A stretch of 45,699 bases of DNA from an uncultured bacterium (GCA_903929735.1 CAIYVW010000037.1:1-45699); one strand, 5' to 3'; counted from the stretch's first letter, positions 10,093 to 22,105 are shown. A program made the numbers and translations. The notes: a model not told the origin generated them from the sequence alone.

Positions 10093-10166
10093 GCAGTCGT
10101 AGCTCAATTGGTTAGAGCACCCGCCTGTCACGTGGGAGGTTGAGGGTTCAAATCCCTTCGACTGCG
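10093..10166 (+). tRNA. tRNA-Asp (anticodon GTC), integration target
   Basis: Acceptor GCAGTCG/CGACTGC, D stem GCTC/GAGC, anticodon stem CCCGC/GTGGG with loop CTGTCAC (anticodon GTC), T stem GAGGG/CCCTT with loop TTCAAAT. It is the last gene of the forward tRNA cluster and its 3' end is the left boundary of the 12-kb element. The recombinase gene on the other strand ends inside its anticodon loop, overlapping by 39 bases. Confidence 0.95.
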
Positions 10167-11777
10167 CAGTATTGGACAAAGCACCCCTAAACGGGTGTTT
10201 TGTTCTTTTGTAGCAAAGGTTTTTTCCAGTTCCAACCGATTTATTTCACTTTCTACAGCTTTTCGCTTTTTCTCTATTGGTTCTAGCCAATCGTTTGGTA
10301 AAATAAAGAGTTTTTGGTCTTTTACTATATAGTTCCAACCAAGTGCAGTAAATATACTTTTCTTATCTTCTATTGTAGTTTCAGGGTCTTCAAACTTGAT
10401 TTTTGCTACTTGTGCAAAGTTGAATACTTGTTCGGTGTATTGTAACCAGTTCAATGCTCGGCTTTCAGTTTCATTGATTTTCTGCTTTAAGATTGCAATT
10501 TTTTCAATCAGTTCATTTTTTCTTGAAGCATACTGCTCATCATTTATTAGATCACGCATACGCATTGTTATTAAGTTATCTAGCTCTCTTTGAGATACCT
10601 CAATATCGCCTAATTGTGTTTTATAAATTAGCTCCCTTTCTCGGACTTCATCTGAGTGTTCTTCTGCAAGTATTCTTAATGCCCAATCTCTAAACTTTTC
10701 AGAAATCGTATATTTGTCTATTTCTTCCTTTATCATATCTTCCATATTTTTCAATGGAATAAAAGCTCTTTGGGAACAATTTTCTGTTCCTTTCTTTCGG
10801 TGTGAACAATAATAAAATGTGTAATCTTTTAATTCGTTTTTAGTTTTTATCAATTTAGTTTTTGTACAAGCTGTAACAGAACTTCCACATTCGCCACATA
10901 TCATTGTGCCAGTGTATGTGAATATATGACTCTTAGCTCTAGGTTTTCCATATCTCCCTAATAATTTTTGAACCATATCAAACTCATCCATTGTAATCAT
11001 TGGTTCGTGTTTACCATTTCCAACTTCTCCATTGTAAATAAAAAGACCAGTATAAAATATATTTGTTAAGATATTATACATAGTACTTTTATTTATTTTT
11101 CCACCTCCACGATGCCGTGTCGTTCGTGTTCTCATACCCCAATCATCACTCATTATTTTTAAGAGCTTAGGAATTGTATATTCTCCAGTTAGCATCATAT
11201 TCCACGCTTTCTTAATAAGTTCAAATCGTTCAGGGTCTTTGATTATGTAATTTTCACCACGAACTTCGTGTTTAGTATTTAAGTATCCGAGAGGAGCCAA
11301 TACTGGAGCTAATCCCTTAATAATTTTTTTATCAATTCCACTCTTTACTGCTTTCGCTAAATCTTTACTAAACTGACTAGACATTCCACTCTCTACACTG
11401 ATGATAATTGCATTGTCAGACGGTAAGTATTCTTTTTCCTTGGTCTGTATTGACTGTACTTTTCCGTCAGCAAGTAATTGTTGTAATATTCCACTCTCAA
11501 GAGGATTACGGGAGAGACGATTTAGATGCCAACAAATAATTCCATTTGCTTCACCCTTTTCTATTCTACGGATCATCTCACTAAATGCGGGTCTATTATT
11601 TGGTAGTTTGGCAGACCGACTCTCAGAGAAACTATCAATAACTTCTAAATCATATCTTGTGATAGTTTTTCTATTTTCTTCGTGTTGTCTGTCTATTGAT
11701 TGCACTTGTCTATCTTCTCCTTCAGAAGATTTACGTGCATATTCAAAGTATTTAATTTTTGATGTTTGTTTTGTCAT
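10128..11777 (-). CDS. Large serine recombinase (integrase)
   Basis: A 549-aa site-specific recombinase. An N-terminal resolvase domain (about 8-150) contains YARKSSEGEDRQVQSIDRQ with the nucleophilic Ser, then CWHLNRLSRNPLESG. A Recombinase domain follows (about 165-275, with STMYNILTNIFYTGLFIYNG). A zinc ribbon (CGECGSS ... YYCSHRKKG ... C) and a long C-terminal coiled coil (about 375-470) complete it. These enzymes integrate and excise elements through a covalent Ser-DNA intermediate. The last codons (RRDLNPQPPT) are antisense tRNA-Asp, and the TGA stop lies on the anticodon. A TATAAT at 11917-11912 and a structured leader precede the start. Confidence 0.95.
   Translation of the reverse strand: MTKQTSKIKYFEYARKSSEGEDRQVQSIDRQHEENRKTITRYDLEVIDSFSESRSAKLPNNRPAFSEMIRRIEKGEANGIICWHLNRLSRNPLESGILQQLLADGKVQSIQTKEKEYLPSDNAIIISVESGMSSQFSKDLAKAVKSGIDKKIIKGLAPVLAPLGYLNTKHEVRGENYIIKDPERFELIKKAWNMMLTGEYTIPKLLKIMSDDWGMRTRTTRHRGGGKINKSTMYNILTNIFYTGLFIYNGEVGNGKHEPMITMDEFDMVQKLLGRYGKPRAKSHIFTYTGTMICGECGSSVTACTKTKLIKTKNELKDYTFYYCSHRKKGTENCSQRAFIPLKNMEDMIKEEIDKYTISEKFRDWALRILAEEHSDEVRERELIYKTQLGDIEVSQRELDNLITMRMRDLINDEQYASRKNELIEKIAILKQKINETESRALNWLQYTEQVFNFAQVAKIKFEDPETTIEDKKSIFTALGWNYIVKDQKLFILPNDWLEPIEKKRKAVESEINRLELEKTFATKEQNTRLGVLCPILRSRRDLNPQPPT
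10164..10168. other. Putative attL core (GCGCA)
   Basis: Last acceptor bases and discriminator of tRNA-Asp plus CA. The same five bases occur at 22199-22203. The element-side half-site TGGACAAAG lies at 10173-10181. Assignment rests on the dyad formed when both ends are joined. Confidence 0.6.
10178..10206 (+). terminator. Element-borne terminator downstream of tRNA-Asp
   Basis: GCACCC, a six-base loop, GGGTG and a T-rich tail (TTTTGTTCTTTT) on the forward strand. It lies inside the antisense recombinase coding region. It would end the tRNA cluster transcript now that the native terminator is 12 kb away. Confidence 0.6.
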
Positions 11778-15319: not shown

Positions 15320-15497
15320 GTGCGCATAAGTCAGTTTTCAATCAAGGTTTATTTACCTTGGTTACCAATCGTGTTCAGCATAGGCACTCTATGTGGGATA
15401 CAGGATTGGTAACCTTTTGGCTACTGACTTGTGCGCACCCACTGGAGTGCCTATTTTGCGTTTCAGTGGAAGACATCTGTATTAGCGCACTATGTCT
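15320..15497 (+). ncRNA. Pseudoknotted structured leader or RNA upstream of mod
   Basis: Helix A: 15320-15335 with 15423-15438 (GTGCGCATAAGTCAGT, 16 bp with one U-G). Inside it are a hairpin at 15343-15348/15355-15360 and helix B, 15360-15370 with 15404-15414 (11 bp). Helix C, 15380-15389 with 15445-15454 (ATAGGCACTC, 10 bp), starts inside B and ends outside A, making a pseudoknot. Its 3' strand is the loop of helix D, 15439-15444/15464-15469. The mod ATG is in a further hairpin, AGACAT/ATGTCT (15471-15476/15492-15497), and GCGCAC just before it (15485-15490) could instead pair with the GTGCGC of helix A. It may be a regulatory leader, a free-standing RNA, or a single-stranded-DNA origin. Confidence 0.6.
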
Positions 15498-17201
15498 CAA
15501 CAAAATAAATTACAATTACACGAAAAAGAGCTTCTTGCTCGTATTTCAGAACTTGAGTTAGAAATTAAAAAACTTAAGGATAGAAAATATGGACTTATTT
15601 GGGAAGATAAACCAGAAGAGGTTGTTTTGCAATGCAAAGCCAATATCCCTATTTTAAGAGAAGTTAAGAATAGAAAAATTGTTTCTGATAATTTAACACC
15701 AAACAATCTTTTGATTGAGGGTGACAATTATCACTCTCTTTCTGTTTTGAACTATACTCACAGGAAAAGTGTTGACCTTGTATATATTGATCCACCTTAT
15801 AACACAGGAGCTAAAAACTGGAGGTACAACAATGATTATGTTGATGGAGATGATGATTGGAGACATAGTAAATGGGTATCTTATATGAATAGAAGATTGC
15901 TCTTAGCAAAGAATGTACTAAAAGACAAAGGTGTTCTTGTCTGTGCTATTGATGAAAACGAACACGCCAATCTTGGATTACTTATACATCAGATTTTTAC
16001 GAATTACACGATTGACTGCGTTACAGTAGTTCATAATCCTAGAGGTGTTCAGGGTAAAAACTTTTCGTATAATCACGAGTATATCTATTTTGCCTATCCA
16101 AATGATGGAGGAAAATATATTCTAGATGCTGAAAGAGAAGAGACACTTGAAAGAAACTTTAGAGTTGACGGTAGTAACTCGCCAAGATCAACCTCAAAGA
16201 CAATGTTTTTCCCAATTATTATAGAAGATAAAAAGATTGTTGGTTTTGGTGATGTTGCTGATGTGAATTATCACCCAAAGCAACAAACTGAACATAGAAA
16301 GAATGGGCAGATTTACGTATGGCCAATAGATATAAACGGTATTGAAAGAAAGTGGTCTTTTTCTAGAAATAGTATAGAAGAAATTAAAGACCAGTTAATT
16401 TTCAAGAACAGAAAAGATAGATACGAAATCTATAGGCAAAAAGATGCTTCCCCCTATAGAACAGTGTGGATCAATTCTAAATATGATGCTAATGAATATG
16501 GCTCAAAATTAGTTAATTCTATTATTGATACAAACTTTCCTTTTCCCAAATCAATTTATAATGTTCTAGAGTGTGTATCAGCTACTGTTGGGAATAATAA
16601 AACTGCAACAGTTTTAGATTTTTTTGCTGGTTCAGGAACTACAGGTCACGCTGTCCTAGAACTGAATAAGCAAGATGGTGGTAATCGTAAGTTTATTCTT
16701 TGTACAAATAATGAAAATAATATATGTGAAGAAGTTACTTATGAACGTATTAAAAGAGTTATAAAAGGATATAAAAATAAGAAAGGTGAAAAAATTGAAG
16801 GTCTTGGTGGTAATTTATCATATTACAAAACCGATTTAGTGAACATAGAAAAAATACACAAGATTTCAGATGAAGAAAAAATTAAGGTTACTTATCAAGC
16901 TGGTGAAATGATAGCAGTAAGAGAAGATACCTTAAATGAAATAGAAAAAAATGAATGGTGGCAGATTTTTGAAGGAAATAATAATATCACTGCTATTTAT
17001 TTCAAAGAAGATAAAGAGAAAATTAAAGAACTGATAAAAAAACTTATTTCTAAATTTGAGAATGATAAAACTTCCGTAACTCTTTATATTTTCGGTTGGG
17101 GTAAAAATGAATACAAAAATGAATATAGTTCAGGCCTAGTTCGTGTCGAGGACATTCCTGAACCTATACTGGAAGTTTATAAAGAAATAAATCGTTTATA
17201 A
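15492..17201 (+). CDS. mod: Type III restriction-modification methyltransferase (Mod)
   Basis: A 569-aa N6-adenine DNA methyltransferase of the beta class: the catalytic DPPY motif (VDLVYIDPPYNTG, about residue 90) precedes the SAM-binding motif (VLDFFAGSGTTGHAVLEL, about 374). Between them lies the target-recognition region (about 170-350). The N-terminal coiled coil (about 1-35) and the sequence around WVSYMNRRLLLAKNVLKDKG are typical of type III Mod. Mod both methylates one strand of the site and gives the Mod-Res complex its specificity. res starts 3 bases later. The start codon lies in a hairpin of the structured leader and lacks an obvious Shine-Dalgarno. Confidence 0.95.
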   Translation: MSQQNKLQLHEKELLARISELELEIKKLKDRKYGLIWEDKPEEVVLQCKANIPILREVKNRKIVSDNLTPNNLLIEGDNYHSLSVLNYTHRKSVDLVYIDPPYNTGAKNWRYNNDYVDGDDDWRHSKWVSYMNRRLLLAKNVLKDKGVLVCAIDENEHANLGLLIHQIFTNYTIDCVTVVHNPRGVQGKNFSYNHEYIYFAYPNDGGKYILDAEREETLERNFRVDGSNSPRSTSKTMFFPIIIEDKKIVGFGDVADVNYHPKQQTEHRKNGQIYVWPIDINGIERKWSFSRNSIEEIKDQLIFKNRKDRYEIYRQKDASPYRTVWINSKYDANEYGSKLVNSIIDTNFPFPKSIYNVLECVSATVGNNKTATVLDFFAGSGTTGHAVLELNKQDGGNRKFILCTNNENNICEEVTYERIKRVIKGYKNKKGEKIEGLGGNLSYYKTDLVNIEKIHKISDEEKIKVTYQAGEMIAVREDTLNEIEKNEWWQIFEGNNNITAIYFKEDKEKIKELIKKLISKFENDKTSVTLYIFGWGKNEYKNEYSSGLVRVEDIPEPILEVYKEINRL

Positions 17202-17204
17202 TTT

Positions 17205-19502
17205 ATGCTTATACTTAAACCATTTCAAGAAACAGCAATATCTCAGCTTAAAGACAAGTTTTTAACTTTATGGAAACTTGGTGATACAAATGTTAATTTA
17301 ACTTTCAAATCTCCAACTGGTTCGGGAAAAACAATAATGATGGCTCAATTCTTGAGAGATATTGTTTCTGACCCACGATTTGCAAGTGCAGATGTCGGTT
17401 TTATTTGGATTACAAACTCTGACTCTCTCGCAATGCAATCAAAAGATAAACTTTTTACGTATTACGGAGGAGCTAGCGAAAATCCACTTATTGATCTGAA
17501 CAATCTACGAGATGGTGTTATTCCTAAGAACGGGGTTTTCTTTATAAACTGGCAGAAACTTGTATCAAAATCAAAAGATAATCGTAAACTTCGCACTGAG
17601 GGTGAGTCAAATACCACCTTTGATATGTATCTAGAAAATACACATATACTTAAACGTGATGTTGTATTGATTATTGATGAAGAGCATATTGCTTCCGATA
17701 CAGTTCTTGCTAGTGATTTAATTAAGAATGTTATTAAGCCAAGAATTATAATTGGTGTTTCAGCTACCCCTCAAACAAAAGGTATTACTGTAGATGTTGA
17801 CCGTAAGGATGTTGTACGAGAGGGTTTAATAAAAGAAAAAATTGTATTTCAAACAGCTGAAGATTTAGAAAATAAAGAATATAAAAATATGGATCAGGAT
17901 GATGTTCTTCTTACTTTAGCTTTTGAGAAAAGAAACGAGCTTGTTGAATACTATAAAAAACTTAAGATTGATATTAACCCACTTGTTTTAATACAACTTC
18001 CAAATGACGATAAAGCAAGAAAAGATACTGCTAATATGACCAAGCAAGATTTGGTTATAAACTTTCTTAAGTCAAAAGGAATACTCACTCACGAAATAGC
18101 CGTCTGGCTTTCAGACGATAAGGTAAATCTTGCAGACGTAGAAGCAAGTAATTCACCAGTATCATTTTTACTTTTCAAACAAGCAGTAGCTACAGGATGG
18201 GATTGTCCACGAGCAAGTATCTTGGTGATGTTCCGTGAGATTAAAAATCCTACATTTGCTATCCAAACATCAGGTCGTATTTTACGTATGCCACTTGGAG
18301 TACATTTTTCAGTACCAGAACTTAATCTCGGTTATTTATACACAAACTATAAACGAAATGAAGTACTTGTTGGTTATGCAAAATCTGCTGACCAAAATAG
18401 ACCAGCAATAAATGGAAGTTACAGGAAAACGGCTGTAGAACCAATTGTTCTTGACTCAGTGTTTATGAGCCGTACTGACTATAACGATTTAGGTGATAGC
18501 TTCCAAGAAACTTTCAAAAAGGTAGCAAATAATTATTTTGGTATTTTAGAAAAAGATACAAAAGCAAATGTTATAAAAAAGTTCAATGATAAAAAACTTT
18601 CTTTAGACAAAAAAGTTACAAATGGCCTTATTGTTGATGTTGAGATTGATGACTATGATAATTTCAAGCAGGAACTTCTTTCTGAGGGAAGTAGTTATGA
18701 GCAAGAAATGTCACAGCATGATTTAGAGAGATTATATAATCTTTTCTGTTTTAATATCATATCTAAACAAATTGATGAGGATAAAAAGTTTGCTCCAGAG
18801 CGTTCTTGGGGTAAATTAAAAACCGCCTTAAATGTGTGGCTTCTTGGTCTCCTTAAAGAACAGCGATTACAAATCTATCACATTATTGTAAATGATTTCT
18901 TAAAAGTGAACAGTGTTTTGAGTAGCGTAATTGGTAAAGCATTATCTACATACAGACCAATTCGTGAGCAAGAAATAAATCATAAATCTCAAAGATCCAA
19001 ACGAACTGAGCAAATTGAAATACCAAGACCATCCCTTTTCTATACTGACCAATATGAAGAAATGAAAGTAAAGAAAAGTGCAATGCAACCATTCTTTATA
19101 GAAAAAGATTATACAGGCAAGAAAAATGAGACAAACTTTATTAAATCATTAGAAGAAAATGATAGTGTTCTCTGGTGGTATAAAAATGGTGATTTGGGTA
19201 GTGAGTTTTTCTCTATTCCATATTATGATCCAACAACCAACAAAGAAAGTTTGTTTTATCCTGACTGGGTTATAAGAAATGAAAAAGGTGTTTACATAAT
19301 AGATACAAAAGGTGGTGATACAGCAAAGGGGGCAAAAGAACGTGCTGAAGCGCTCCAAGCGTGGATAAAAAGCAAGAAAGGTTATTATGGAGGTATCGCT
19401 GTCCAAGATGGCTCAAATGGCTGGAAAATCAACGATAGTGCTAAATACGAGTATACTACTGCTCTTAAGGGATGGAAAGATTTAGAAGATTTTTTGAATT
19501 GA
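17205..19502 (+). CDS. res: Type III restriction endonuclease (Res)
   Basis: A 765-aa SF2 helicase-nuclease. Walker A SPTGSGKTIMMAQF (about residue 38), motif II DEEH (VVLIIDEEHIAS, about 160), motif III GVSATPQ, and motif VI QTSGRILRMPLG are visible. The C-terminal nuclease has the PD...D-x-K pattern in FYPDWVIRNEKGVYIIDTKGG (about 685-705). It is somewhat shorter than the roughly 900-970 aa of classic EcoP-type Res but keeps all key motifs, so it should be active. It is translationally linked to mod and ends 10 bases before the convergent RT gene. Confidence 0.93.
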   Translation: MLILKPFQETAISQLKDKFLTLWKLGDTNVNLTFKSPTGSGKTIMMAQFLRDIVSDPRFASADVGFIWITNSDSLAMQSKDKLFTYYGGASENPLIDLNNLRDGVIPKNGVFFINWQKLVSKSKDNRKLRTEGESNTTFDMYLENTHILKRDVVLIIDEEHIASDTVLASDLIKNVIKPRIIIGVSATPQTKGITVDVDRKDVVREGLIKEKIVFQTAEDLENKEYKNMDQDDVLLTLAFEKRNELVEYYKKLKIDINPLVLIQLPNDDKARKDTANMTKQDLVINFLKSKGILTHEIAVWLSDDKVNLADVEASNSPVSFLLFKQAVATGWDCPRASILVMFREIKNPTFAIQTSGRILRMPLGVHFSVPELNLGYLYTNYKRNEVLVGYAKSADQNRPAINGSYRKTAVEPIVLDSVFMSRTDYNDLGDSFQETFKKVANNYFGILEKDTKANVIKKFNDKKLSLDKKVTNGLIVDVEIDDYDNFKQELLSEGSSYEQEMSQHDLERLYNLFCFNIISKQIDEDKKFAPERSWGKLKTALNVWLLGLLKEQRLQIYHIIVNDFLKVNSVLSSVIGKALSTYRPIREQEINHKSQRSKRTEQIEIPRPSLFYTDQYEEMKVKKSAMQPFFIEKDYTGKKNETNFIKSLEENDSVLWWYKNGDLGSEFFSIPYYDPTTNKESLFYPDWVIRNEKGVYIIDTKGGDTAKGAKERAEALQAWIKSKKGYYGGIAVQDGSNGWKINDSAKYEYTTALKGWKDLEDFLN

Positions 19503-19512
19503 TTATAAAGAA

Positions 19513-20538
19513 TTATTTTTTATTCATATATTTTGTTGATATTTCGTTAGTTATCTTTCTTGCATTACCGTGACTTAAAAGTCCTAAGTATGACTGAACT
19601 GTATCTATCTTGCCCTCTTTTAGTTTAATACGTTTCCACATTCTACGTTTAGTTACTGTTCTAATTACACGATGATTTGGAAAATGTACCCATCCAAGAA
19701 AATCAATTCCAGAAACCAGTGTGTTTATAGATACTTTGTTATGGTGAAGTGATAACTTAAGCTGTTCTTTAAGAAAATTAGATATTTGAGGAAGTATGTT
19801 TTTTTCAATCCATTCTTTGTTTTCAGACATAACAATAAAATCGTCTGCGTAACGAATATAGTATTTTATTTTTAGTTTGTGTTTAATAAATTGATCAAAC
19901 TCATTCATATAGATGTTTACAAGCAATTGTGAGGTGAGATTACCAAGAGGTAATCCGACATCTTCTTTGGTTGAATGAAAACTTTTAATTATTTCTGACA
20001 AAAGTGAGGTAACGTCGTCATCTCTAATATATTTTTTAATAATTTCAATAAGGATATTCTGGTCAATGGAAGCAAAAAACTTTCTTATATCACCCTTCAA
20101 AACCCACACTGTCCTTGTATTATTCTTTGATACTTTGTTAGAGAAAGTCCTAAATCTTTGTATCGCCTTATGTGTTCCTTTATTTTTTCTACAAGAATAT
20201 GAGTCAGAAGTAAAAGTCCTATCAAAAAATGGATAGAGTACACGATAGATAGCGTGGTGAAGTAATCTGTCTCGTACTTTTGCTTTATGTATACTTCGTG
20301 GCTTTGGGTCAGAAATGTTGAAGGCGTAATAATCAGAATGCTTATATGTTTTATTTAAGAGTTCATTGTGTAGGTCTATTATATTATCCATTAAGTTTCG
20401 TTCAAAATCTAAAACATCCTTCCTTAATTTTTTGTCTATTGAAAACTCTTTCCAAGCAAATAGAAGATTATTAAGAGAAATGATATGTTTATATGTATGA
20501 ATAAATTGAATACGAATCATATTAAAAATAGTGTTCAA
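19513..20538 (-). CDS. DGR reverse transcriptase
   Basis: A 341-aa reverse transcriptase. Domain 4 reads GLPLGNLTSQLLVNIYMNEFD; the S-Q in place of the retroviral/group II S-P is the DGR-type signature. The catalytic YADD is in YYIRYADDFIVMSE. Upstream motifs include RSIHKAKVRDRLLHHAIYRV and VLKGDIRKFFASID (first catalytic Asp). The C-terminus has DFLGWVHFPNHRV and a short thumb. No maturase or endonuclease domain exists, unlike group II introns. The enzyme copies TR RNA with errors at adenines. ATGs at 20538 or 20520 are possible starts; either overlaps the 5' end of the divergent avd. Confidence 0.94.
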   Translation of the reverse strand: MNTIFNMIRIQFIHTYKHIISLNNLLFAWKEFSIDKKLRKDVLDFERNLMDNIIDLHNELLNKTYKHSDYYAFNISDPKPRSIHKAKVRDRLLHHAIYRVLYPFFDRTFTSDSYSCRKNKGTHKAIQRFRTFSNKVSKNNTRTVWVLKGDIRKFFASIDQNILIEIIKKYIRDDDVTSLLSEIIKSFHSTKEDVGLPLGNLTSQLLVNIYMNEFDQFIKHKLKIKYYIRYADDFIVMSENKEWIEKNILPQISNFLKEQLKLSLHHNKVSINTLVSGIDFLGWVHFPNHRVIRTVTKRRMWKRIKLKEGKIDTVQSYLGLLSHGNARKITNEISTKYMNKK

Positions 20539-20901
20539 ACTCCAACACTTTTGCCAGTACTACATAAACTAAAAACTGTGTATCTTCTATGGTATAGCTA
20601 TTATCAGATTTTACCCAAAGAACATCGTTATTCTCTTGGAATAAAAATAGATAGCTTGTTTGTAGAAATAATGGAAGCCATCTCTTTGGCTGGATTTCTT
20701 ACTAAAGGAGAAAAACAACCTTACGTAAGATTATCAATCAGAAAGGTTGATACTTTGAAAATCTTACTGATGATTTTATGGGAGACAAAATCTATTGATA
20801 ATAAAAAGTACATTGCACTTTCTGTCCCCTTAGATGAGGTAGGAAGAATGCTTGGTGGTTGGAATGGACAGCTTACAAAACAAAACTCTCCCATCACATA
20901 G
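20485..20901 (+). CDS. avd: DGR accessory variability determinant (Avd)
   Basis: A 138-aa (or 134-aa from the ATG at 20497) four-helix-bundle protein of the Avd/S23-like family. It has a helix around LHKLKTVYLLWYSYYQILPK, the basic turn PKEHRYSLGIKIDSL, and the C-terminal signature VPLDEVGRMLGGWNGQL, closely like the EVGR-I-L-G-x-W end of Avd. Avd forms a positively charged pentamer that binds RT and the TR RNA and is required for mutagenic homing. Unusually, the gene is on the strand opposite to RT, TR and target. It converges on TR and its 5' end overlaps the divergent RT gene by at least 24 bases. Confidence 0.85.
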   Translation: MFICMNKLNTNHIKNSVQTPTLLPVLHKLKTVYLLWYSYYQILPKEHRYSLGIKIDSLFVEIMEAISLAGFLTKGEKQPYVRLSIRKVDTLKILLMILWETKSIDNKKYIALSVPLDEVGRMLGGWNGQLTKQNSPIT

Positions 20902-20920
20902 AAAGGAGAGAAATGAAAAG

Positions 20921-21048
20921 ATTTGCGAGAACAGCAGACGGGTTATTAGCGTTCCAATCATTCTCAAGCCAATTGTAGTTCCAGTTCCACTTACCATCGT
21001 TCCAGTACAAGTACAGGACGTAACGGTTACCGTTAGAGTTCCGAAGAA
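20921..21048 (-). repeat. DGR template repeat (TR)
   Basis: 128 bases aligned without gaps to VR (21405-21532). 20 substitutions are present, all at T on the + strand, i.e. A in the sense of the target gene. 20 of the 34 A positions differ and none of the other 94. Read in the target frame, TR is rich in AAC/AAT (Asn) codons, 17 in all, which is the usual design because A changes in these codons sample many residues. It is non-coding itself and lies just beyond the 3' end of avd. Confidence 0.97.
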
Positions 21049-21281
21049 ACATATAGAGTATCATCTATTCCACCACCTCTTGAATACTCTCAAGGTTGTA
21101 TATTACTCGTGATAATAATCACTCAATACTCTATACCAAGTATCTTCATTTTTTTGAAGTTTCTGCATACATCACTCTACTTGAAACCTTAATCTCAAGT
21201 ATTCTGAATGTATGGATACTGGTTTCGGTAGCGGAAAATCGTAATCGTCCGCATATTCACCTACTACCGTATTTAGTTTAA
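21049..21281 (-). other. Leader and spacer upstream of TR (no gene)
   Basis: No convincing ORF. On the reverse strand it precedes TR and contains an inverted repeat TATAGAGTAT/ATACTCTATA (21126-21135 paired with 21052-21061), whose inner arm almost touches the TR 5' end. Smaller hairpins lie inside (CTTGA/TCAAG and GTGAT/ATCAC). It probably holds the TR promoter and a structured 5' part of the TR RNA. I could not pick a clear promoter. Confidence 0.4.
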
Positions 21282-21316
21282 CACAAAAAAATAACCCCTG
21301 TATAAAAATACAGGGG
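21282..21316 (-). terminator. Terminator of the DGR target gene
   Basis: Reverse-strand perfect 9-bp hairpin CCCCTGTAT/ATACAGGGG with a 4-base loop (21295-21316), followed by TTATTTTTTT. A second stem, GGAGG/CCTCC at 21318-21335 followed by eight Ts on the + strand, lies between it and VR. Hairpins just after VR are also part of the homing signal in some DGRs, so a double role is possible. Confidence 0.8.
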
Positions 21317-21371
21317 CGGAGGATAAAGTACCTCCAATTTTTTTTCGCGAAATGCACAAAGGACAAAGGGT

Positions 21372-22031
21372 CTAAGAAACCAAAGTTTCAGAAACCAGAG
21401 TGCTACTTGCGAGAACAGCAGACGGGCCATCAGCGAACCAATCACGCCCAAGCCAATAGTAGTTCCAGTCCCACTCACCACCGTCCCAGCACAAGTACAG
21501 GACGTAACGGCGACCGCCAGAGTCCCGAAGAACAGTTCCATCAAAGAAAATAAAAGTTGTATTCCCGTTTGTTTTTTCTTTCCATTTTTCAGGAATGAGG
21601 ATTTGGTTTTCCCAAAGTGTTTTGAAAATACCAGCATCCAAACGAATACGATTTGTTTTTTCTTTGAGACGTTTGAGTTTGTCTTCACCTTTAATGATTT
21701 TCTCTCCTTTTTCCAAGGTTGAGTCAAACATAACCTCAGTTAGGTCAATTTCGGTGAGAGCAATTGCTCTTTCGTCTTGTTCTTCAATAGACCATCCGTC
21801 ACCAATAAAGGTTTTGGGATCAAACAGGATAGAGCGGTCAATGCTGATTACCCTTGGGCTATCAACTATAACTTTTCCACCATTTTTAAGGAATGCAGTA
21901 AATTGTTTACCTGCTTCCGTAGGGTCATCTACAATCTTTTGTAAAATTGTGTGTTCCAAGACATCCCAATTAACATTGGTTGCAAGGATTTGGATAACCG
22001 TGTGAGACTGACCAATAGATGGCTTACTCAT
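21372..22031 (-). CDS. DGR target protein with C-terminal variable domain
   Basis: A 219-aa protein from the ATG at 22031, chosen because AGGAGG lies 5 bases upstream; the frame is open to 22061. The N-terminal part (about 1-155) is unrecognised but includes a segment of the type seen in other Patescibacteria DGR targets (IGDGWSIEEQDERAIAL). The C-terminal part (about 160-208) starts TTFIFFDGTVLRD and has the aromatic/Gly-rich pattern YVLYLCWDGGEWDWNYYWLG of a C-type-lectin-like variable domain. VR covers this part. No signal peptide or membrane helix is seen, so the diversified binding surface may act inside the cell or be exported by an unseen route. The ligand is unknown. Confidence 0.88.
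   Translation of the reverse strand: MSKPSIGQSHTVIQILATNVNWDVLEHTILQKIVDDPTEAGKQFTAFLKNGGKVIVDSPRVISIDRSILFDPKTFIGDGWSIEEQDERAIALTEIDLTEVMFDSTLEKGEKIIKGEDKLKRLKEKTNRIRLDAGIFKTLWENQILIPEKWKEKTNGNTTFIFFDGTVLRDSGGRRYVLYLCWDGGEWDWNYYWLGRDWFADGPSAVLASSTLVSETLVS
21405..21532 (-). repeat. DGR variable repeat (VR)
   Basis: The variable copy, forming codons of the C-terminal part of the target gene. Compared with TR, 15 codons differ: several Asn to Asp or Gly, Asn to Arg (twice), Asn to Tyr, Phe and Ser, plus Tyr to Cys, Asp to Gly, Lys to Glu and Glu to Gly. All need only A substitutions. Its 3' border (21405) is 33 bases from the stop codon. Confidence 0.97.
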
Positions 22032-22075
22032 AATTACCTCCTTTTTTAATAAGAACAACATCGTTCTTGGTTTAT

Positions 22076-22105
22076 ATTATAGCATAATATAACACATTAT
22101 GTCAA
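22076..22105 (-). promoter_or_regulatory. Strong promoter of the DGR target gene
   Basis: Reverse-strand consensus TTGACA (22105-22100), 18-base spacer, consensus TATAAT (22081-22076). The predicted start is near 22069, giving a leader of about 38 bases with a hairpin AAGAAC/GTTCTT and then AGGAGG. This is the best consensus promoter in the window. Confidence 0.85.

Follow-up and report, generated by a model that had tools for sequence, protein, structure and literature searches.

A Patescibacterial diversity-generating retroelement with a conserved RNA leader 5′ of its template repeat and an inverted avd gene

This work concerns a diversity-generating retroelement (DGR) at positions 19,513 to 22,105 of a 45,699-nucleotide stretch of DNA from an uncultured bacterium (GCA_903929735.1, CAIYVW010000037.1:1-45699), here called the window. 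By its parts the locus is an intact DGR of a lineage of the Patescibacteria, which are ultra-small bacteria. It is our favored reading, held with reasonable confidence, that this DGR makes a stand-alone template RNA of ~400 nt whose scaffold for the reverse transcriptase (RT) and Avd lies 5′ of the template repeat (TR), a permutation of the BPP-1 arrangement. This reading is carried by a conserved, covarying RNA leader that ends at TR, by complementarity between the leader and the sequence directly 3′ of TR, and by an avd gene that stands inverted between TR and the RT gene. Together, the template RNA and the inverted avd set apart a variant that seems to be general among Patescibacteria. We have not found it described: in a literature search, neither a 5′ leader nor an avd inverted across a whole lineage was reported for DGRs (DOIs 10.1093/nar/gkx1150 and 10.1038/nmicrobiol.2017.45, two main DGR papers, lay outside that search).

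Adenine-Specific Transfer from Template to Variable Repeat

The target gene, the template RNA and the RT are all read from the minus strand. On this strand TR (20921-21048) and the variable repeat (VR; 21405-21532), which lies within the 3′ end of the target gene, align without gaps over 128 nt with 20 mismatches, each at a template A (15 A>G, 3 A>T, and 2 A>C from TR to VR). TR holds 34 A, none of the 94 non-A positions is mismatched, and the chance of all 20 mismatches falling in the 34 A is 1.2e-14. They alter 15 target codons, each nonsynonymously, 11 of the 15 being Asn, and the 763 kb genome contains just two copies of the repeat, one TR and one VR. An initial annotation of this DNA had described the same ungapped match, with its A-only changes, and 15 altered codons, mostly Asn; realignment bore the match out exactly and the codon count held. 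The RT with a GNLTSQ motif and YADD that it named was recovered (GLPLGNLTSQ and YADD are both present), as were the Avd, through matches to the bAvd, NCBIfam, and PHROG profiles, though under curated cut-offs, and the consensus promoter (TTGACA-18-TATAAT, 22105-22076) and terminator of the target gene. With 20 of 20 mismatches confined to A, an RT, an Avd, and a 219-aa target, the DGR is therefore real and not a product of chance, and the broader claim of a complete adenine-specific DGR of a kind common in Patescibacteria is supported. The A-specific TR/VR pair, the DGR-type RT, the VR at the 3′ end of the target, and the Avd found here are all shared with the BPP-1 DGR (mtd-VR, avd, TR, brt; NC_005357).

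Related loci show the same specificity. Of 147 genomes in the same family, 77 have relatives of the RT, and ~40 loci were taken from those 77 as a family set, 36 of which (the window included) have a TR/VR pair; 634 of their 641 mismatches lie at A. A second, named set consists of 80 loci from the 80 best genome matches, which are titled as Patescibacteria groups or as bacteria without a given group, and in 63 of these loci 1072 of 1100 mismatches lie at A, this set sharing a few loci with the 36 of the family set. The window shows no difference between the initiation of mutagenic homing sequences (IMH/IMH*) at the 3′ ends of the repeats; at that place, several relatives consistently have A in TR and C in VR.

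A Conserved Structured Leader 5′ of TR

The interval from the target terminator to TR can be aligned across loci, and in the 36 loci the ~230 nt between a second promoter and TR constitute a conserved structured RNA. This putative leader of the template RNA (21050-21281, minus strand; alignment A4) begins with a TATAAT-like box at the start of the alignment (21267-21281, minus strand). In this box, the predicted -10 region for the template RNA, TA.A.T-like columns are kept in all of 30 leaders, and a transcript start near 21267 is probable. Behind the box follow, all on the minus strand, hairpin H1 (21231-21252; helix 1), hairpin H2 (21178-21201; helix 3) with the loop motif GRYYAMGRYUU, a linker L (21139-21151), and domain D3 (21052-21137; helices 5-7), whose 12 bp closing stem adjoins TR. 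Seven of the eight pairs covary in H1 and likewise in H2, 98.6% of the closing-stem cells of D3 are paired, and the loop motif is common to two leader hairpins. The consensus fold comprises 38 pairs, 32 of which have changed on both sides, with 96.6% of cells paired. The fold scores 0.858 for covariation, where shuffles score 0.294 (sd 0.014) and versions with slid partners no more than 0.175; two-sided pair changes number 334 cells in the real alignment and 101 in shuffled ones. The median distance from the end of the leader to the start of TR is 1 nt. On this covariation the leader is well supported as a conserved folded RNA; it is the strongest feature of the locus and is absent from the initial annotation.

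A covariance model of the leader, R1, matches in 64 of the 147 family genomes, in 72 of the 80 named loci, and in 55 of 287 genomes drawn across the phylum, the matches falling in many of its families. When viral contigs were scanned for the exact pattern of the D3 core, none matched, and no Rfam family reached its gathering score over the leader in the 55 loci searched. We also considered the interval between VR and TR as a small gene; the frame (VVGEY..LPKPVS.H.EY) is open in ~9 of 36 loci and broken in the others, and because of the covariation we read the interval as RNA.

A Predicted Linker Clamp and a Probable Terminator 3′ of TR

Immediately 3′ of TR, and exactly where the TR/VR homology stops, lies a short element, L′ (20911-20920, minus strand), complementary to the leader linker L. 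When cognate L and L′ were compared with pairs permuted within two subgroups, the duplex energy in one set of 49 loci was -7.56 kcal/mol for cognate and -6.26 (sd 0.23) for permuted pairs; in the other, of 36 loci, it was -6.34 for cognate and -4.63 (sd 0.28) kcal/mol for permuted pairs, with 0 of 20,000 permutations reaching the cognate value in either case. The two elements also change together. Locus L029 has AACAAGA/TCTTGTT where L040 has AACAATA/TATTGTT, and matched pairs of other sequence occur in L126 (AAATAAAGT/ACTTTATTT) and L142 (AAATGAAGC/GCTTCATTT). We grade the predicted pairing as well supported and not as proven, because permutation leaves some shared ancestry among the loci.

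After L′ comes a hairpin with a T-tract (20877-20910, minus strand), which is probably the terminator of the template RNA and overlaps the 3′ end of avd. A gap of ~10-15 nt after TR, followed by a hairpin and TTTT, is found in 36 of 36 loci against 19% of shuffled flanks, and the stems differ in sequence among the loci. Read in antisense, the T-tract and stem of the probable terminator encode the conserved tail of Avd (KQNSP or KTPP; window 20877-20910), so the end of this protein is apparently dictated by an RNA element.

An avd Gene Inverted Across the Lineage

The RT gene (19513-20538, minus strand; likely ATG at 20520) matches phrog_1423 at 3.5e-103, and the best solved match of its alignment is 8ub7 (1.3e-53), the BPP-1 RT. 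A promoter scan gave the RT no strong promoter of its own. The avd gene (20485-20901, plus strand) is inverted relative to the RT, and its start codon is uncertain, as the start of the open reading frame overlaps the RT 5′ end. Avd is recognizable yet divergent by its profile scores, with 35.9 bits (1.2e-8) for Pfam bAvd against a cut-off of 40, 53 against 80 (3.5e-14) for the NCBIfam profile, and a PHROG match at 1.3e-11.

The position of avd between TR and RT, on the strand opposite to RT, is the same throughout the family set (37 of 37 loci with avd) and the named set (77 of 77). Among viral contigs, avd is inverted in all 12 loci with an Avd and an RT identity of 44-60%, whereas it is in sense in 11 loci with an Avd and an RT identity of at most 36%; it is also in sense in Bacillus phage BalMu-1 and a Vibrio phage. 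R1 follows the same division, matching in 12 viral contigs with the inverted-avd type of RT and in none of the 13 phage-type loci tested, all of which have avd in sense. The inverted avd is a trait of the whole lineage wherever avd was found in relatives. The gene arrangement is unusual, as had been annotated initially, but it is not a peculiarity of this locus. The avd and RT genes overlap at their 5′ ends in head-to-head orientation (window 20485-20538), and transcripts of avd could continue as antisense across TR and the leader.

Comparison with BPP-1 and Other Known Elements

In BPP-1, the TR RNA has avd sequence on its 5′ side and a spacer, Sp, on its 3′ side; Sp folds, recruits RT-Avd, and supplies an internal adenine primer (PMC12875486). 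All parts of the BPP-1 DGR stand on one strand with avd before TR (annotation of NC_005357), whereas in the window avd is inverted and lies between TR and RT. Likewise, the structured scaffold Sp of BPP-1 is 3′ of TR (PMC12875486), whereas here the structured RNA is 5′ of TR with a probable terminator behind TR. Neither a sense avd 5′ of TR nor a structured Sp 3′ of TR was found in the window; the one large conserved fold found is 5′ of TR, covarying structure not having been sought beyond the post-TR hairpin.

Two further likenesses concern the lineage and its RNA. Clade 2 of the DGRs surveyed by Roux et al. (2021) contains Patescibacteria only, is cellular, and has targets without recognized domains (PMC8144416). 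The window DGR resembles it in all three respects, a likeness by description and not by RT tree; the main text of that survey mentions neither Avd nor its strand (PMC8144416). H2 resembles a hairpin of the Rfam family RT-7 (RF03028), sharing a GUCAAGG-type loop and AGAGUG, but scores 22.6 bits against a gathering score of 116.8, and the 55 relatives gave no match at gathering level. As H2 matches in this way and two sub-threshold RT-7 matches in one relative's genome (G298) fall inside R1 matches, RT-7 is probably a distant relative of the leader.

Proposed Mechanism and Its Alternatives

From the observed parts and their order, the A-specificity, the conservation and covariation of the RNA, the L-L′ complementarity, and the inverted avd, we infer a mechanism, and with it the transcript ends, RT-Avd binding at the leader, the site of priming, and present activity. 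The target gene would be expressed from its own promoter to its own terminator. From the second promoter a non-coding template RNA of ~400 nt would be made, consisting of the leader (H1, H2, L, and D3), TR, L′, and the terminator hairpin. L would pair with L′ and thereby hold the 3′ end of TR, the necessary start of cDNA synthesis, against the leader. The leader would recruit RT-Avd and set initiation at the TR/L′ border, which is the job of Sp in BPP-1. The RT would then copy TR with misincorporation opposite A, and the cDNA would replace VR in the target gene. The space between TR and RT could be taken by avd on the other strand because no spacer would be needed there, the last avd codons overlapping the terminator. 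A more specific version, over which we are evenly divided, holds that throughout this Patescibacteria lineage it is the 5′ leader and not a 3′ spacer that binds RT-Avd, that the cDNA is primed by a nucleotide of the leader adjoining the L-L′ helix (in a conserved UUGG facing the 3′ end of TR), and that RNA and cDNA form one self-contained unit that does not depend on transcripts of RT or avd. Overall, the findings suggest that mutagenic DNA copying is initiated in a distinctive manner across this whole lineage.

Several points weigh against the stand-alone template RNA. Its promoter, 5′ end, and terminator are predictions from sequence, L-L′ pairing is weak at some loci and its permutation tests leave some shared ancestry, R1 E-values are rough, and Avd scores under curated cut-offs. 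The leader could also control expression or stability instead. The alternative that takes up this last point, which we consider unlikely, makes the leader a cis-regulatory RNA, riboswitch- or attenuator-like, that sets the level of the template RNA or the RT, with cDNA priming 3′ of TR as in BPP-1. The leader does sit behind a promoter, as leaders do, and the post-TR hairpin and T-tract could stop transcription conditionally before it reaches RT. Against a regulatory leader, the structure ends at TR itself, pairs with the 3′ flank of TR, and is confined to the inverted-avd architecture, and the ~10-15 nt between TR and the hairpin are too short for an Sp-like scaffold unless there is read-through.

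Read-through beyond the hairpin into a longer spacer is possible, and it is the substance of a second alternative, in which the post-TR sequence is no terminator, transcription continues into RT, antisense avd serves as the spacer, and the scaffold is split across both sides of TR. Read-through may be needed for RT expression, because the scan gave RT no strong promoter, and the BPP-1 spacer occupies exactly that place (PMC12875486). Yet the stem and T-tract are kept in 36 of 36 loci though the stems have changed, and the antisense region encodes a conserved protein, Avd. Antisense avd as spacer was our first choice and was demoted because the hairpin and T-tract behind TR are universal; we now think it improbable. 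Much the same small chance is given to a decayed DGR that is no longer active, an explanation that leaves the stand-alone template RNA intact for the relatives. Some relatives carry RT fragments, but in the window all genes are open, no non-A change separates TR from VR, and the leader and L-L′ pairing are intact. An ordinary BPP-1-like DGR, with flanks conserved merely through close kinship of the loci, would fit protein families that are the same as in known DGRs, but is barely credible given the excess of two-sided pair changes in the leader over shuffles and R1 matches in many families of the phylum.

The stand-alone template RNA would matter beyond this locus. Work on the DGR mechanism rests almost wholly on BPP-1, and a phylum-wide lineage with another template RNA shows which parts are general. 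A compact ~400 nt RNA with its own promoter and terminator should be easy to reconstitute, and RNA models of the R1 type can find DGRs even when VR is distant. The start site of cDNA synthesis could be tested directly in Patescibacteria, whose DGR targets stay unexplained (PMC8144416).

The Target Gene and Its 3′ Surroundings

The target promoter (22076-22105, minus strand) has 12 of 12 consensus matches and a TG before the -10 box. The target start is most likely the ATG at 22031, which is preceded by an AGGAGG ribosome site, and the target gene (21372-22031, minus strand) therefore encodes 219 aa, with a short helical N-terminus and a variable C-terminal domain. Its terminator (21284-21317, minus strand) is a 10 bp stem with a T-tract. 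Sequence searches with the target gave no domain or PDB match. An AlphaFold model is confident over residues ~61-212 and poor in the helical N-terminus, and structure searches with it gave no significant match, the best in the PDB by Foldseek having E = 1.5. A few C-type lectins are among the weak Foldseek matches; the initial annotation was right about a variable C-terminus, while its "lectin-like" label is weakly supported. Target relatives are spread across the phylum, sharing parts, and many of them adjoin DGRs. In two loci (L089 and L091) the N-terminal helical module is joined to other C-terminal domains, suggesting that targets exchange modules.

DGRs of the BPP-1 type have a 7-10 bp GC-rich hairpin with a GRNA loop after VR (PMC3240598). 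Such a hairpin was not found after VR here: the window has a weak 5 bp stem with a TTTG loop (GAAAC-TTTG-GTTTC, 21376-21389, minus strand) amid CTTTG-like repeats, and relatives are little enriched in it. The words CTTTG, CTTGG, and CTTAG occur 2.86 times per locus in the 110 nt after VR (window 21290-21404; 36 loci) against 0.45 in shuffled sequence, and they are possibly a target-side recognition element that replaces the BPP-1 hairpin.

Genomic Surroundings and Mobility

A large serine recombinase gene (10128-11777, minus strand) overlaps tRNA-Asp (10093-10167) at its 3′ end, and four of its closest relatives likewise abut tRNA-Asp. Between it and the DGR sits a type III restriction-modification system (15492-19502, plus strand; Mod 15492-17201, Res 17205-19502), and in locus L042 the same order of recombinase, Mod, Res, and DGR occurs with genes diverged in sequence. 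No attR copy of the tRNA-Asp end of at least 10 nt was found on the same strand, and in an empty-site comparison via the PhoH neighbors the orthologues were too diverged to define limits. The mobile context proposed for this DGR is supported; the DGR likely lies within a mobile island that is not delimited, because the second attachment site was not found. One viral contig (L261; IMG/VR 3300031215_001417, 1-2797) has a direct terminal repeat of 125 nt that closes it to 2672 bp and contains exactly one DGR cassette with the target, the leader RNA, TR, an inverted avd, and the RT. This contig may represent a minicircle of the DGR or else an assembly artifact in which a tandem repeat was collapsed.
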